Both the position numbers and the translations under genes were made by a program. From Candidatus Desantisbacteria bacterium CG1_02_49_89 (GTDB lineage Bacteria; Desantisbacteria; UBA1551): DNA of 10,448 bases. Positions within the stretch are counted from its first letter, which is position 1, and each line of letters begins with the position of its first letter. This document shows, one piece after another, positions 1,376-10,002 of the stretch. The notes below the pieces were generated by a model. The model was not told the DNA's origin. It saw only the letters and a list, made by a program, of their open reading frames with translations, and made no database searches. Location: positions 1-10,448 of the forward strand of contig MNUP01000074.1 in assembly GCA_001871075.1 (NCBI GenBank), read 5' to 3'.

Positions 1376-1423
1376 AAAAAAGCCCATCTACCGCGAATGG
1401 CGAGTTGCCAGCAGCAAATGGGC
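1376..1423 (-). terminator. Intrinsic terminator in the pilin-operon leader
   Basis: On the minus strand GCCCATTTGC (1423-1414) can pair over 10 bp with GTAGATGGGC (1391-1382), with two G-U wobbles. Six T residues (1381-1376) follow directly. Inside the loop a second small stem, TGGC/GCCA, can form. The T-run ends 12 nt before the start codon of the first pilin gene, so termination here would silence the whole operon. A terminator between a strong promoter and its first gene is the usual mark of an attenuation-type riboregulator. Confidence 0.75.
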
Positions 1424-1471
1424 GAATATTCACATTTTCTATATGCGCTTTAGGCGGCCTGGCAACCCACC
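1399..1471 (-). promoter_or_regulatory. Possible anti-terminator pairing linking aptamer and terminator
   Basis: The minus-strand segment GGTGGGTTGCCAG (1471-1459), the 3' side of the riboswitch-like fold, is complementary over 13 bp (two G-U wobbles) to CTGGCAACTCGCC (1411-1399), which lies in the loop of the terminator. The central 8 bp (GTTGCCAG/CTGGCAAC) are perfect. If the first segment is held in the ligand-bound aptamer, the terminator is free to fold. If it is released, it would capture the terminator loop before the 3' terminator arm is made. The inferred logic is therefore ligand present = OFF, but only structure probing can settle the direction. Confidence 0.55.
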
Positions 1472-1576
1472 CCCTGTCTGTTCCGATCTTATATCGTAGC
1501 AAGGGGGATTGGATCCATAACTTTGCGAGCCTCGGTTTCCCGGGGTTTGCTCTTTTCTAAACAGGTTTCTTTTACC
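1458..1576 (-). promoter_or_regulatory. GEMM-I-like cyclic-dinucleotide riboswitch aptamer
   Basis: Read on the minus strand, the 5' leader has the GEMM-I signature in order: AGAGCAAACC (1553-1544), a 6-bp stem with one mismatch capped by a GAAA tetraloop (1539-1536), GCAAAG (1526-1521), a TATGG-like stretch, a P2-type stem GATCCA/TGGGTT, an extension CCCCC/GGGGG, and the terminal GGGTTGCCAG. The pairs expected at Vc2 positions 21-46 and 22-45 are present (1550-1525 and 1549-1526). The base equivalent to Vc2 G20 is A (position 1551), as in the GEMM-Ib class that senses 3',3'-cGAMP. Weak points: the bases aligning with Vc2 42-43 are C and U, and the outer P1 (perhaps GGTAA at 1576-1572 with TTGCC) is set off by an unusually long spacer. 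Known: GEMM-I aptamers often control pilus and surface-adhesion genes, which fits the minor pilins downstream. Confidence 0.62.
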
Positions 1577-1588
1577 TTTTCACATACT

Positions 1589-1617
1589 ATTATAGCACAA
1601 ATCCGCTTAAAAGTCAA
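1589..1617 (-). promoter_or_regulatory. Sigma70-type promoter of the minor-pilin operon
   Basis: Minus strand: -35 TTGACT (1617-1612), 17-nt spacer, -10 TATAAT (1594-1589). This is one base from full consensus with ideal spacing. Transcription should start near 1582-1580, only a few bases before the riboswitch-like fold, giving a leader of about 220 nt before the ATG at 1363. Such a strong promoter is consistent with control being exerted downstream by attenuation. Confidence 0.88.
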
Positions 1618-3587: not shown

Positions 3588-3769
3588 TCAAACCTGAAGG
3601 TTTGAGTTACGTAACTCAGGGCTTTAGCCCTGATATTTCTCAAACCTTCCTCCTTTAAGATTGGCGGATCTTCGAAAAGGTTTGAGTTACGTAACTCAGG
3701 GCTTTAGCCCTGATGGTTTCAGGCCTCCCTCCTTAAAGATTGGCGGATCTTCGAGAAGACCTGAGTTAC
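3588..3769. repeat. REP mosaic upstream of malic enzyme, with two long-core elements
   Basis: In order: palindrome TCAAACCTGAAGGTTTGA + GTTAC (3588-3610); an inverted unit GTAAC + TCAGGGCTTTAGCCCTGA (3611-3633); a long-core element with arms TCAAACC (3640-3646) and GGTTTGA (3679-3685) + GTTAC; another inverted GTAAC/TCAGGGC unit (3691-3713); and a second long-core element (3719-3764, one arm mismatch) + GTTAC (3765-3769). Head-to-head junctions read GTTACGTAAC. The last GTTAC supplies the TAA stop of RAYT copy 2. The long-core elements share TCCTCC and GGCGGATCTTCGA with those at 4464 and 6281. Confidence 0.9.
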
Positions 3770-4248
3770 AGCTTGTCTATTTGAAACATCATGGAACCGG
3801 AAAATGGATATTCTTTAAATGAATTAACTAATCCTTTTCTGACAGGATTATTAAATATGTATTTCGCGGTCTCAAGCAGCTCTTCTTCTTTTCTGAGGAT
3901 ATGGTCATAATAACTTATATGCCATAACTTTTTCTTAAATTGCCTGATAAACATAAAACCGCTTTTTTGATTAAAATCCTTTATAACCCTTTTAAGATCT
4001 GATTTTGGGGATTTGCTTAAAAGCAACAAATGGAGATGGTCCGGCATAAAACAATAAGCAGCAATATTAAAATCCTGAAGGATAGTTTCTTTCAGAATAG
4101 ATAAGACATTATTTACTGTTTCGGGTGAGATAAAAATTTCTTTTCTTTCATGTGTTAAAATAGTAATAAAATAAGCATGGGTTCCCGTATAATCAAATCC
4201 TTTAAGACGCGGACGTTTAGGAAAAGGTTTATCGTGTTTTAGAGGCAT
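3766..4248 (-). CDS. REP-associated tyrosine transposase (RAYT), copy 2
   Basis: A 160-residue paralogue of the protein at 1740-2222, identical at about 138 positions. The HUH motif (MPDHLHLLLL), the tyrosine region (WHISYYDHILRK) and the NNPVRK block are all conserved; most differences lie at residues 33-54 and the C-terminus. The TAA stop is formed by the GTAAC arm of the adjoining REP, and a REP palindrome ends 9 nt before the ATG, so the gene is framed by REPs exactly as copy 1 is. There is no ribosome-binding site at the ATG (CTAAATAAT precedes it), implying poor or coupled translation. It is AT-rich relative to its neighbours. The two copies bracket malic enzyme in the same orientation, so recombination between them could delete or duplicate that gene. 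Confidence 0.92.
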   Translation of the reverse strand: MPLKHDKPFPKRPRLKGFDYTGTHAYFITILTHERKEIFISPETVNNVLSILKETILQDFNIAAYCFMPDHLHLLLLSKSPKSDLKRVIKDFNQKSGFMFIRQFKKKLWHISYYDHILRKEEELLETAKYIFNNPVRKGLVNSFKEYPFSGSMMFQIDKL

Positions 4249-4257
4249 ATTATTTAG

Positions 4258-4460
4258 TCAAACCTGAAGGTTTGAGTTACGGAGACTGCGTAACTCAGGG
4301 CTAAAGCCCTGAAGTTTTCAAACCTGAAGGTTTGAGTTACGGAGACTGCGTAACTCAGGGCTAAAGCCCTGAAGTTTTCAAACCTGAAGGTTTGAGTTAC
4401 GTATACTGCGTAACTCAGGGCTAAAGCCCTGAAGTTTTCAAACCTGAAGGTTTGAGTTAC
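4258..4460. repeat. 60-bp tandem repeat made of inverted REP pairs (BIME-like)
   Basis: Three consecutive 60-bp units (from 4258, 4318 and 4378) and a partial fourth (4438-4460). Each unit holds TCAAACCTGAAGGTTTGA + GTTAC, a 9-nt spacer (GGAGACTGC, or GTATACTGC in unit 3), then GTAAC + TCAGGGCTAAAGCCCTGA and AGTTTT. The two REPs face each other and have different arms (AAACC versus GGGC). Units 1 and 2 are identical, unit 3 differs only in the spacer, indicating recent tandem amplification. This is the arrangement known as a bacterial interspersed mosaic element. Confidence 0.93.
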
Positions 4461-4463
4461 GTA

Positions 4464-4514
4464 TCAGGGCTCCCTCCATAATGACTGGCGGGTCTTCGAA
4501 AAGCCCTGAGTTAC
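4464..4514. repeat. Long-core REP element that provides the isocitrate dehydrogenase stop codon
   Basis: Arms TCAGGGCT (4464-4471) and AGCCCTGA (4502-4509) are perfectly complementary and enclose a core with CCTCC and GGCGGGTCTTCGAAA. GTTAC follows at 4510-4514. On the minus strand this reads GTAAC, and its TAA is the stop codon of the dehydrogenase gene. The core is shared with 3640-3685, 3719-3764 and 6281-6326, while the arms differ but stay complementary. Confidence 0.85.
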
Positions 4515-6280: not shown

Positions 6281-6375
6281 GCAAACCTTCCTCCACCAAG
6301 ATTGGCGGATCTACGAAAAGGTTTGCCCTATCCGCCCCGACGTCCATCGGGGCGAAACCTCGCCCCAAAGGGGCG
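6281..6375. repeat. Composite palindromic repeat: long-core REP + GACGTCC hairpin + GC-rich hairpin
   Basis: A long-core element with arms GCAAACC (6281-6287) and GGTTTGC (6320-6326) encloses TCCTCC...GGCGGATCTACG. It is followed by CGCCCCGA-CGTCCA-TCGGGGCG (6333-6354), itself enclosed by AGGTTT (6319-6324) and AAACCT (6355-6360), and then CGCCCC-AAA-GGGGCG (6361-6375). The middle hairpin recurs exactly inside the large dehydratase subunit gene (9118-9139). The gap 6163-6455 otherwise holds no credible gene. Confidence 0.85.
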
Positions 6376-6455: not shown

Positions 6456-8060
6456 TCATTTCTGGATCGTGATCTCGACGCGGCGGTTCTTCGCCCTGCC
6501 TTCCTCTGTCGTGTTGGGTGCCGCGGGATTCTTGTCTCCGTAGCCTTTCCTGACAAGCCTTTCGCCGGGTATGCCCAGTTTGACAAAATATTCCGCGACG
6601 CTCTCAGCCCTTGCCTGTGAAAGCTCCAGGTTGTTCTTATATTTTGATTTAAGCCTGCTGCTTATCGGCACGTTGTCAGTGTGCCCGTCGATCCTGACAA
6701 CGGTATTGGGATAAACGCCAAGGGCTTTTGCTATCTGTTCAAGAGTGCCGTAGCTTTCCTTTACTATTTCCGGGCTTCCGGAAGCGAACTGTATGGCGGT
6801 TTCCGTCGCAACGATTATGATCTTCTCCCTGTCTTCCTTTAAGGTTATCCCGCGCAGTTTCTTTAATTCATCCATGGCGTTGCGCTGCGCTTCCTCAAGC
6901 CTGCGCTTTTCTTCCTCAAGCCGCCTTTTTTCGTCTTCAAGCCTCTGCCTGTCCTCTTCCCACTTTTTCTTCTCGCTTTCAAACTTGCCCTTCTCGGCAA
7001 GCAGCCTTTCCATCTCGTCCTTTATGCGCCTTTCCTCCTCAAACCTTGTGCGCTCCTGTTTTTCCCACTTATACGCGTCCCCGAACAGGAAAGAAAGCGA
7101 AACCCACAGCCCGCCGCTCAGGTACTTGCTGGAAGTATGATATGGGATCACGACCGCGCAGTCGAGCTTCCAGTCTGTTTTTTCAACGCGGTTTGACTTT
7201 ATGCCGCCGCCGAACGCGAACGTGAAATCGCCGTTGTCGCCGAACTTCATGCCGGCCCTCACGCCGACCAGGTTATCCTTCATCGCCTTTTTAAGCTCTT
7301 CGGTCTGTTTCAGCCAGGCTTCTCCCCCGAGGCTGAACTTGAACCCGTCTGACCTGGCTATGAAATCCGCGGAACCCGTTATGTCGTTGAATATATTGAA
7401 CTCATTTATCCTGTAGGTCAGGCCGCCCCTGAATCCCATTGCTCCCGCTCCTATGTCAATGAACGCGAGGGCAAAGCTCAGCCTTTCCATTTTCGGTATA
7501 TTGTCAAAATATATGGCTATGTCCGCGTTTATTCCCTGCGGGAACCTGTCGGTGAAAAACCTGCTGTCGCAGGCATTCGAGATCGTAGCCGTGTTGTCCG
7601 GATACTCCTTTGAACACATCTTGACCGTTAAACCGATAGAGGAATAAAAGTTCAGGAGCCTGCTGTAAGAAACACCCAGGGTATTTTCCCTGTACCTGCT
7701 GGAAATATCTACGCCCCTGCCCATGTATCCGATGCCAAGGTGCCCGAGGTTCTGTATGGGATGGACGTAACTGAAAAAGCCGTAAAGGCTTTCTCCGGAT
7801 TCGACGGGATTATCCGAATTATGTGAAAACGAGGCGCCGGTGATCATGATCTCCGGCCTTTTGAGTTTTACAAGGCCCGCGGAGTTGAAAAAAATCGCGC
7901 TTGCGTCGTCTGACACGCCCATAAAAGCGCCGCCCATGCCCATAGCGCGCGCGCCGAAGCTGAAATCTTCGAAAGACGCGTAACAAACGTGTAACGTGTC
8001 ACGTGTAACGTGTAAGGCAAGCAGTAATAAAAGAATTGATAAGATTTTTTTATATTTCAT
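6456..8060 (-). CDS. Outer-membrane protein: PorV/UPF0164-like barrel, coiled coil, C-terminal OmpA domain
   Basis: A 534-residue envelope protein. Residues 1-28 form a signal peptide (MKYKKILSILLLLLAL core) whose C-terminal third (about 17-27) is encoded by a short repeat. Cleavage is likely after Ala28. Next comes FSFGARAMGMGGAFMGVSDDASAIFFNSAGL-type sequence (34-63), the start of PorV/UPF0164 barrels, continuing to about residue 330. Residues 331-410 are a highly charged coiled coil with heptads (RLEDEK, RRLEEEK, RRLEEAQ). Residues 411-534 are an OmpA-C domain with the peptidoglycan-binding GHTDN (Asp462) and KNRRVEITI (Arg526/Arg527). Inferred role: a barrel tethered to peptidoglycan through a periplasmic stalk. 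The ATG at 8060 was chosen because GGGAGG precedes it and the signal peptide starts there. It overlaps the four-helix gene by 11 nt. The combination is unusual: classical OmpA has no long stalk. Confidence 0.88.
   Translation of the reverse strand: MKYKKILSILLLLLALHVTRDTLHVCYASFEDFSFGARAMGMGGAFMGVSDDASAIFFNSAGLVKLKRPEIMITGASFSHNSDNPVESGESLYGFFSYVHPIQNLGHLGIGYMGRGVDISSRYRENTLGVSYSRLLNFYSSIGLTVKMCSKEYPDNTATISNACDSRFFTDRFPQGINADIAIYFDNIPKMERLSFALAFIDIGAGAMGFRGGLTYRINEFNIFNDITGSADFIARSDGFKFSLGGEAWLKQTEELKKAMKDNLVGVRAGMKFGDNGDFTFAFGGGIKSNRVEKTDWKLDCAVVIPYHTSSKYLSGGLWVSLSFLFGDAYKWEKQERTRFEEERRIKDEMERLLAEKGKFESEKKKWEEDRQRLEDEKRRLEEEKRRLEEAQRNAMDELKKLRGITLKEDREKIIIVATETAIQFASGSPEIVKESYGTLEQIAKALGVYPNTVVRIDGHTDNVPISSRLKSKYKNNLELSQARAESVAEYFVKLGIPGERLVRKGYGDKNPAAPNTTEEGRAKNRRVEITIQK
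7983..8013. repeat. CGTTACA/CGTGACA repeat inside the OmpA-protein signal peptide
   Basis: Minus strand: ACACGTTACACG, TGACACGTTACACG, TTTG in succession, the same CGTTACA motif as the array at 8465-8551. It lies in frame within the coding sequence and encodes LHVTRDTLHVC (residues 16-26), directly after the hydrophobic core of the signal peptide and before the likely cleavage site. Confidence 0.8.
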
Positions 8061-8427
8061 TGTTCCTCCCTCTGAAAACACTTATCAATTTACCAAGCAT
8101 ACTGCATATCCTGACACATTTTTCCCTTAATGAATCATGTTTTTCAACATCTATCTCATGCTGTTTAAGACATAAAGTAAGCATCGGGATGCATTCTCTT
8201 GCCGAGTTAATAGCAAAGCCGTAAAATTGTATTTTTTCCTTGGGGGTTGCTTTACCGCTTCCTTCGGCAATATTGTTGGTTATCGACAGCGATGCTCTTC
8301 TCAGCTGGTCGCTAACTGAAAACTGGATATCGCGGGATGCCTTCTTCAGGATGGTAAAAATCTCATCTACAAATTCAAGCGCCAGTTGATATACCTCAAG
8401 TCTTTCAAAATCAAATTCGTATTTCAT
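8050..8427 (-). CDS. Four-helix-bundle protein, S23 / 23S rRNA intervening-sequence family
   Basis: A 125-residue, mostly helical protein. Recognised by FERLEVYQLALEFVDEIF at the N-terminus (FxxLxVYQxAxxF pattern), SVSDQLRRASLSITNNIAEG (37-56, with QLRRAS and NIAEG), and the following FYGFAINSARE segment, which typify the four-helix-bundle family first seen in 23S rRNA intervening sequences of Leptospira. Members are now found as stand-alone genes in many genomes. The biochemical role is unknown; a nucleic-acid-binding function has been suggested. The stop codon overlaps the start of the OmpA-family gene by 11 nt, so the two may be translationally coupled. The ribosome-binding site is weak. 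It is separated from the large dehydratase subunit by a repeat array, and is more AT-rich than its neighbours, hinting at insertion. Confidence 0.9.
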   Translation of the reverse strand: MKYEFDFERLEVYQLALEFVDEIFTILKKASRDIQFSVSDQLRRASLSITNNIAEGSGKATPKEKIQFYGFAINSARECIPMLTLCLKQHEIDVEKHDSLREKCVRICSMLGKLISVFRGRNNEI

Positions 8428-8464
8428 AGGTTTTCGAATTCCGCATTTCCTATTTTCTTCTTTT

Positions 8465-8551
8465 CCGTTACACGTTACACGTTTTGCATTTCCCGTTACA
8501 CGTTACACGTTTTGCATTTCCCGTTACACGTTACACGTGACACGTTACACG
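8465..8551. repeat. 28-bp tandem repeat built from CGTTACA heptamers
   Basis: The unit is CCGTTACACGTTACACG + TTTTGCATTTC, in copies beginning at 8465, 8493 and 8521. The third changes into CGTGACACGTTACACGG and runs to within a few bases of the stop codon of the large dehydratase subunit. It fills the gap between that gene and the four-helix gene; no terminator or promoter was evident. Confidence 0.88.
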
Positions 8552-8555
8552 GTAT

Positions 8556-9956
8556 TTAAAGGAAGCTCCTCGGGTCCGTTATCCTGCCGGTGACGGCCGA
8601 CGCTGCGGCAGTCGCCGGGGAAGAAAGATAAATGAACGCTCTGGGATTCGCCATCCTGCCCTTGAAATTGCGGTTTGCCGTGGAGAGAACGACCTCCCCG
8701 TCCGCCGGAATGCCCTGGTGAGTTCCAACGCAGGGGCCGCATCCGGGATTAAGGACCGCGCCTCCCGACTTTACAAAGGCCTCGATGATCCCCTCTTTGA
8801 GGGCCCGCAAGAAGATCCCGCGCGATGCCGGAACGATAATAAGCTTAAGCTTCGGGTGTATTTTTCTATTCCTGAGGATCGCGGCCGCGATCTTCAGGTC
8901 CTCAAATCTGCCGTTGGTACAGGTCCCTATGACAACCTGGTCTATTTTTGTCCCTTCAACACTGCCCAAAGGAACAACATTATCCACGGTATGCGGTTTC
9001 GCTATCATCGGCCCTATCTTGCCCGCGTCAAACGTCAGTATCTTTTCGTATCTCGCATCTGCATCTGCTTTTACACCAGCAAGCCTACCCGCCCTGCACA
9101 AGGGCAGGGCGAGGTCTCGCCCCGACGTCCATCGGGGCGGAAAGGCTTGCCCTGCATTCTGCGCAGGCTGAAGCCTGCGGCTACCGTTGACACGTTGACA
9201 CGTTGCCTGCCCGCCAACGCTTTTTGGGTGGGACACGTTGACACGGTTTTTGTTCAGCCATGCCGCCGTTTTGCCGTCCGCTTCCATCAGGCCCGCCTTG
9301 GCTCCCATTTCAACAGCCATATTAGAAACGGTCAGCCTTGAATCAACGCTCAGAGAACTAATGGCAGAACCCGCGAATTCCACTGCCCGGTAGTTTGCGC
9401 CGTCCGCGCCGATCTTGCCTATGAGATAAAGGATCAGGTCCTTGCCAAACACTCCTTTTTTCAGCCTGCCGTTCATGACTATTTTTATTGTTTCGGGAAT
9501 TTTCAGCCATATCCTGCCCGATATCATAGCGGCAGCAAGGTCAGTTGAACCGACGCCTGTCGAGAAGGCATTCAGCGCACCGTATGTGGTTGTGTGGGAA
9601 TCAGCCCCTATGACCAGCATTCCGGGCAGAACGTTGTCTTCAGCCATGACCTGGTGGCATACGCCGCAGCCCACGTCATAAAGTTTGATCTTATGCCTGA
9701 GCGCGAACTCCCTCATCATGATATGCAGCCTTGAAACATCAATGCTGGGCGACGGGCTGTTGTGGTCAATGACCATGGCTATCCTGCCGGGGGAAAAAAC
9801 TTTCTTTCCGCGCATTTCCTCAAACGCCTTTATGGCAAGCGGCGAAGTCCCATCCTGGCCCATAAGGAAATCCACCCTGCACACGGCTATCCGGCCGGCA
9901 GAAACATCTATTCCCGAATGAGCACCCAATATTTTTTCCGCGATCGTCTTTCCCAT
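8556..9956 (-). CDS. Large subunit of a 3-isopropylmalate dehydratase/aconitase-family enzyme with repeat-encoded insert
   Basis: A 466-residue LeuC/aconitase-like catalytic subunit holding a [4Fe-4S] cluster. Residue numbers count from the ATG at 9956. Visible: MGKTIAEKIL at the start, VIDHNSPSP (62-70), ADSHTTTYGA (118-127), GVGSTDLAAAM (134-144), and cluster cysteines Cys346 (GTCTNGR), Cys406 and Cys409 (NPGCGPCVG). Family members are usually about 420 residues. The excess is an insert at about 235-295, encoded by a mosaic of palindromic repeats, between TAAWL and ADADARYEKI. No catalytic residue is lost and the frame is intact. The ATG at 9956 matches family N-termini; an ATG at 9971 lies inside a heptamer repeat, and neither has a ribosome-binding site. 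With the small subunit (5671-6162) and isocitrate dehydrogenase it probably handles citrate/isocitrate; isopropylmalate is the alternative. It is the first complete gene after the promoter at 10178-10205. Confidence 0.88.
   Translation of the reverse strand: MGKTIAEKILGAHSGIDVSAGRIAVCRVDFLMGQDGTSPLAIKAFEEMRGKKVFSPGRIAMVIDHNSPSPSIDVSRLHIMMREFALRHKIKLYDVGCGVCHQVMAEDNVLPGMLVIGADSHTTTYGALNAFSTGVGSTDLAAAMISGRIWLKIPETIKIVMNGRLKKGVFGKDLILYLIGKIGADGANYRAVEFAGSAISSLSVDSRLTVSNMAVEMGAKAGLMEADGKTAAWLNKNRVNVSHPKSVGGQATCQRVNGSRRLQPAQNAGQAFPPRWTSGRDLALPLCRAGRLAGVKADADARYEKILTFDAGKIGPMIAKPHTVDNVVPLGSVEGTKIDQVVIGTCTNGRFEDLKIAAAILRNRKIHPKLKLIIVPASRGIFLRALKEGIIEAFVKSGGAVLNPGCGPCVGTHQGIPADGEVVLSTANRNFKGRMANPRAFIYLSSPATAAASAVTGRITDPRSFL
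9072..9256. mobile_element. Composite palindromic element inserted in frame in the large dehydratase gene
   Basis: About 185 bp made of at least four repeat modules: outer arms GCAAGCCT (9079-9086) and AGGCTTGC (9143-9150) enclosing hairpins GCCCTGC/GCAGGGC (9091-9110) and CGCCCCGA/TCGGGGCG (9118-9139); CGCAGGCTGAAGCCTGCG + GCTAC (9162-9184); GTTGACAC octamers (9185-9206); CCCGCC/GGGTGGG (about 9210-9232); and another octamer block. Module 2 is identical to 6333-6354. Read on the minus strand it is open in the gene's frame and encodes about 60 residues, including the segment PPRWTSGRD. The exact ends of the insert are inferred from the family alignment as I remember it. Confidence 0.82.
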
Positions 9957-9967
9957 TTTAAATGCAG

Positions 9968-10002
9968 TCATTTGTCATTAGTCATTAGTCATTTGTCATT
10001 AG
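9968..10002. repeat. Heptamer tandem repeat at the start of the large dehydratase gene
   Basis: Five 7-bp units on the plus strand: TCATTTG, TCATTAG, TCATTAG, TCATTTG, TCATTAG. On the minus strand each contains ATGA, so five ATG triplets precede the likely start codon, in shifting frames. The first overlaps the alternative start at 9971. Confidence 0.85.

Follow-up and report, generated by a model that had tools for sequence, protein, structure and literature searches.

A GEMM-I riboswitch with an adenine at position 20 precedes a putative minor-pilin operon in Candidatus Desantisbacteria and may act as a transcriptional OFF switch

Introduction

Cd1 of Clostridioides difficile is a GEMM-I riboswitch that has been measured to be an OFF switch: its antiterminator pairs with the 3' strand of the aptamer, while the aptamer and the terminator are compatible with each other (PMC9262584). 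Changing its equivalent of G20 to A did not abolish c-di-GMP binding (PMC9262584). The pilM and pgcA switches of Geobacter are ON switches (PMC9262584, PMC6456294). In aptamers with A20, a base that makes contact with one of the guanines of c-di-GMP is exchanged, and the mutation A20G turns a cGAMP aptamer of Geobacter into a c-di-GMP aptamer (PMC6456294). A crystal structure of the G20A variant of Vc2 from Vibrio cholerae contains cGAMP (4YB1, cited by PMC6274999), and an engineered c-di-AMP binder also has C92U (PMC7288161).

Here, we describe a GEMM-I riboswitch in a 10,448-nucleotide stretch of contig MNUP01000074.1 from Candidatus Desantisbacteria bacterium CG1_02_49_89, hereafter the window. 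Like Cd1, it is a GEMM-I element with probable transcriptional control, whose predicted antiterminator pairs the 3' strand of the aptamer with a strand further downstream, and its P1 is weak, as the P1 of Cd1 is weak or absent (PMC9262584); unlike it, Cd1 controls a flagellar operon and has a G at the equivalent of position 20. With the Geobacter GEMM-Ib switches (pilM, pgcA, Gmet_0970) the window shares A20, the GEMM-I fold and a place before pilus genes, whereas those switches have C21-G46 and U22-G45, are ON switches and occur in genomes with Ser-type Hypr GGDEF proteins. Vc2 G20A has the same pocket change, A20 over a canonical P2 base, but it is engineered and its parent is a translational switch. 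Finally, A20, G21-C46 and C22-G45 are found together in L047, L051, L055 and other aptamers (Omnitrophota, Rokubacteria, Chloroflexi, Firmicutes, others), which differ from the window in a stronger P2 and in their downstream genes. The C92 that is changed in the c-di-AMP binder is retained in the window, which makes c-di-AMP a less likely ligand.

GEMM-I is a well-known family. What is new is its occurrence in a little-known lineage together with one informative change in the pocket, and GEMM-I control of minor pilins would thereby extend to a poorly sampled phylum (two genomes).

Results and discussion

Read on the minus strand, the locus contains a promoter, an RF01051 aptamer, a terminator, a ribosome binding site and prepilin-like ORFs, in this order (Table 1). 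This bears out the original prediction, which had placed a GEMM-I riboswitch, with a near-perfect promoter ahead of it and a terminator behind it, in front of a pilVWX-like operon. Transcription is expected to start near 1582. The aptamer matches Rfam family RF01051 (GEMM-I, c-di-GMP-I) over the full model (1-87) with 46.4 bits (E=1.1e-6), above the gathering score of 35. The 13-bp stem of the terminator (1423-1411 with 1394-1382) carries a 4-bp inner UGGC/GCCA helix.

Table 1. Coordinates of the leader elements and downstream ORFs in the window (all on the minus strand).
Feature	Position	Basis or detail
Promoter, extended -10	1617-1589	TTGACT, 17-nt spacer, TG before TATAAT; 11/12 consensus matches
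GEMM-I aptamer including P1	1561-1449	RF01051 for 1561-1450; P1 by eye
Antiterminator 5' strand, GGUGGGUUGCCAG	1471-1459	Within P3 3' strand; 13 bp with 1411-1399
Antiterminator 3' strand, CUGGCAACUCGCC	1411-1399	Within terminator upper stem and loop
Intrinsic terminator	1423-1376	MFE of full leader; ends in U6 (1381-1376)
Ribosome binding site GAGGAG	1372-1367	Sequence read directly
PilV-like minor prepilin, 131 aa	1363-968	N-terminus MQKNSSSG^MSLVEL
PilW-like minor prepilin	959-354	MSDQKG^MSLLEM; start 959 picked by prepilin motif
PilX/GspK-like minor prepilin	345-1	3' end truncated at window end

We regard the label pilVWX-like for the three ORFs as fair but not proven, since their family matches are mostly weak. 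The PilV-like ORF probably starts at 1363, behind the ribosome binding site, rather than at the mechanical start 1387; it matches TIGR02523 (PilV) below the cut-off (E=0.0033) and Pfam N_methyl with 21.0 bits against a cut-off of 21.2. The matches of the PilW-like ORF to N_methyl (33.3 bits) and TIGR02532 are both above the cut-off, and the PilX/GspK-like ORF reaches 22.5 bits with PilX_N (cut-off 25.5) and E=0.003 with GspK. Several PilB/PilT-type ATPases (T2SSE family) are encoded in the genome of the window, so a type IV pilus or a related system is likely in this organism. A search of the phylum's one other genome with the PilV-like protein gave no clear homologue, and hence orthologues provide no covariation; likewise, no relative of the pilin operon carrying the riboswitch was found.

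The aptamer retains the conserved GCAAA and GAAA elements, a GNRA-capped P2 followed by CGCAAAG, and the equivalents of A47 and C92 (the latter at 1454). When positions are numbered by the conserved GCAAAC..CGCAAAG core, the base aligned with Vc2 G20 is A1551, and the neighbouring 21-46 and 22-45 pairs are kept as G1550-C and C1549-G, both as originally read. Two further peculiarities had been ascribed to this aptamer. The CU replacing Vc2 42-43 is indeed present, but it is rare rather than unique, since the Coriobacteriia aptamer L055 has the same CU in J2/3 and L051 has CA. The spacer before P1 is not abnormally long: P1 can be drawn by eye as 5 bp (1561-1557 with 1453-1449), which leaves a J1/2 of 6 nt, the usual length also seen by eye in L006, L009 and other GEMM-I aptamers. 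P2 has one C-A mismatch, and P3 is long with a divergent receptor. Because of this mismatch, the short P1 and the divergent P3 receptor, binding could be weak, judging from the sequence.

Downstream of the core, we found a predicted 13-bp antiterminator, which is in competition with the aptamer as well as with the terminator. When the downstream part was dinucleotide-shuffled 2000 times, a helix as strong arose only twice. For transcripts ending at 1399 or 1395 the MFE structure is the antiterminator, and after 1394-1382 has been made it is the terminator. The antiterminator is joined to the 3' strand of the terminator by 4 nt, which on geometric grounds would be too short a link for both helices to form together. 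The same layout can be drawn in L001 and L004 but is no more than suggestive there, as 183 and 308 of 2000 shuffles, respectively, did equally well.

These competing helices suggest how the leader might operate. Without ligand, the 3' strand of P3 (1471-1459) would pair over 13 bp with 1411-1399, and polymerase would read through into the pilVWX-like genes. When ligand is bound, the P3 strand would stay in the aptamer, the terminator would form and the minor-pilin operon would be off. Since the antiterminator competes with both aptamer and terminator, as in Cd1, we infer that the ligand should switch the pilin genes OFF. We believe that the element is probably, although by no means certainly, a GEMM-I transcription-attenuation OFF switch, with c-di-GMP as the most likely physiological ligand.

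This predicted direction is opposite to that of the Geobacter GEMM-Ib switches, whose ON behaviour (PMC6456294, PMC9262584) would speak for a leader in which ligand binding blocks the terminator, as in pilM and pgcA. We rejected such an ON switch, and consider it very unlikely here, because the terminator stem and the aptamer have no base in common. The two can coexist, and it is as antiterminator that the aptamer strand rivals the terminator.

There is also a slim chance that the aptamer has decayed, with a P2, P1 and receptor so divergent that it no longer binds, and that the leader is a constitutive attenuator. The C-A mismatch, A20, the CU in J2/3 and a score of 46.4 bits, against 70-80 for the best GEMM-I aptamers, are consistent with decay. 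However, the conserved GCAAA, GAAA and CGCAAAG elements and the A47 and C92 equivalents are all retained, the antiterminator is significant and the promoter is close to consensus, and these features argue against decay.

As for the ligand, the window had originally been considered a possible cGAMP-sensing riboswitch of the GEMM-Ib type. When about 85,000 named genomes were scanned for A20 aptamers, with counts taken from the matches listed being lower bounds, these matches comprised two types that are split by the base of P2. The first type (ACUAAACC...CGGAAAG, with C21-G46 and U22-G45) was found, among the matches listed, in Geobacter, Geomonas, Geotalea and related Desulfuromonadia or 'Deltaproteobacteria' bins; its outliers were L083, from a loosely named Proteobacteria bin, and the variant L100, from a Competibacteraceae bin. 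The second type (AGCAAACC...CGCAAAG, with a canonical P2 base) was scattered, again among the matches listed, over Omnitrophota, Firmicutes, Chloroflexi, Rokubacteria, Actinomycetota and others. The window aptamer belongs to the second type: A20 is present, and the Geobacter-type P2 base is absent. Of 96 readable GEMM-I aptamers sampled separately from genomes spread across bacteria, with 15 further aptamers that our script could not read left out, 92 had G20, three had A20 (about 3%) and one had C20, and all three A20 aptamers had the canonical P2 base. Since roughly 3% of GEMM-I aptamers, over many phyla, have A20 but lack the P2 signature of Geobacter, this base by itself should not be taken as a marker of cGAMP.

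Group-specific covariance models point the same way. Even at E<=10, the model R1, built from 20 Geobacter-type aptamers, gave no hit in the window; it does detect G20 aptamers, with 37-42 bits. With the canonical-type models, the others having been built from 18 G20 and 21 scattered A20 aptamers, the window scores 39.9 bits (R2) and 48.4 bits (R3). We take the failure of R1 as supportive rather than decisive with regard to GEMM-Ib membership, since R1 is narrow, the P3 of the window is long and R1 also misses L001 and L003, two G20 copies from the same genome.

The genome, which is 93.5% complete, contains four GGDEF domains, and all four have the c-di-GMP-type Asp at the position of PleD D344, the residue that sets GTP specificity. 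Hypr-type GGDEF domains are recognised by Ser or Thr at this position (PMC9140294). The original prediction had suggested looking for DncV- or Hypr-type cyclases in the same genome; at this completeness, we found neither a Hypr-type variant among the four GGDEF proteins nor a match to SMODS/CD-NTase. Our residue script is able to detect Hypr-type domains, since it picks out Ser and Thr variants from a genome of Geomonas (L228, L232). Because no recognised cGAMP synthase is present in the genome, c-di-GMP is the likelier signal; at 93.5% completeness, a cGAMP synthase could nevertheless be missing from the assembly.

The GEMM-Ib reading is weakened by these results, and we regard it as possible but not favoured. 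In particular, we find it unlikely that the switch responds in vivo to cGAMP, or to cGAMP and c-di-GMP alike, by way of an unrecognised or missing synthase. A20 at 1551 would fit such a switch, as would the binding of cGAMP by Vc2 G20A (4YB1, as cited in PMC6274999 and PMC7288161). A further point in its favour comes from an Omnitrophota genome in which an A20 aptamer (L064) occurs together with a Ser-type, Hypr-like GGDEF protein (L191, GHMVGSHVL...RYGGDEF); judged by these sequences, this genome may be a case of cGAMP signalling beyond the Geobacter group. It was the single genome with a Ser-type domain among the other A20-bearing genomes checked, where coverage was near-complete for five and partial for the others; the rest had Asp, one Asn, or degenerate domains. 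Against a cGAMP switch in the window stand the lack of both Hypr GGDEF and SMODS proteins in its genome, the canonical P2 base, the missing match to the GEMM-Ib model, the spread of A20 with this P2 base over many phyla and a predicted platform opposite to that of the Geobacter switches.

With c-di-GMP as the preferred ligand, we infer that A20 probably alters affinity or relaxes specificity and is not the mark of a switch devoted to cGAMP. On a canonical pocket it may permit both c-di-GMP and cGAMP, since Cd1 with the equivalent change still binds c-di-GMP and Vc2 G20A holds cGAMP. More tentatively, and with doubts outweighing our confidence, A20 on a canonical pocket could be a recurrent third type of specificity or affinity, either a dual c-di-GMP/cGAMP sensor or a high-threshold sensor of c-di-GMP. 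If this were true, the minor pilins would be shut off at a signal level unlike that of the genome's three G20 switches. A natural canonical pocket with A20 makes a plain test of the effect of this base possible, and, as one A20 switch occurs here beside three G20 switches, thresholds can be compared within a single genome.

The three other GEMM-I aptamers of the genome all have G20, which fits c-di-GMP as the ligand. They precede a GxxExxY protein, a Big_1/DUF11 surface protein and a DUF7305 protein. One of them (L003:1501-1578) is a GEMM-I match with a shortened P3, and since its 3' part overlaps a possible ATG (1568) of the Big_1/DUF11 protein, control there could be translational. In the other of the two genomes of the phylum that we searched, GEMM-I had no match.

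Elsewhere in the window, we observed several repeats and mobile elements. Two near-identical IS200/Y1-type (RAYT-like) transposases (1740-2222 and 3766-4248) are both flanked by tandem palindromic repeats, TCAGACCTGAAGGTCTGAGTTACG and relatives, in arrays resembling those of REP/BIME (2206-2430 and 4241-4514). Tandem 28-nt TTACACGTTACACGT repeats (8461-8558 and 7981-8020), with inverted copies about 450-500 bases away, surround an ORF for a 23S rRNA intervening-sequence-type protein (8050-8427). A 22-bp palindromic REP-like repeat, CGCCCCGACGTCCATCGGGGCG, is present at 9118-9139 and 6333-6354 and at about 40 places in the genome; the reversed control gave no such places. The ORF of an aconitase/IPM dehydratase large subunit (8556-9971) contains one copy in frame, and the family match of this ORF is split at about residues 245 and 297.
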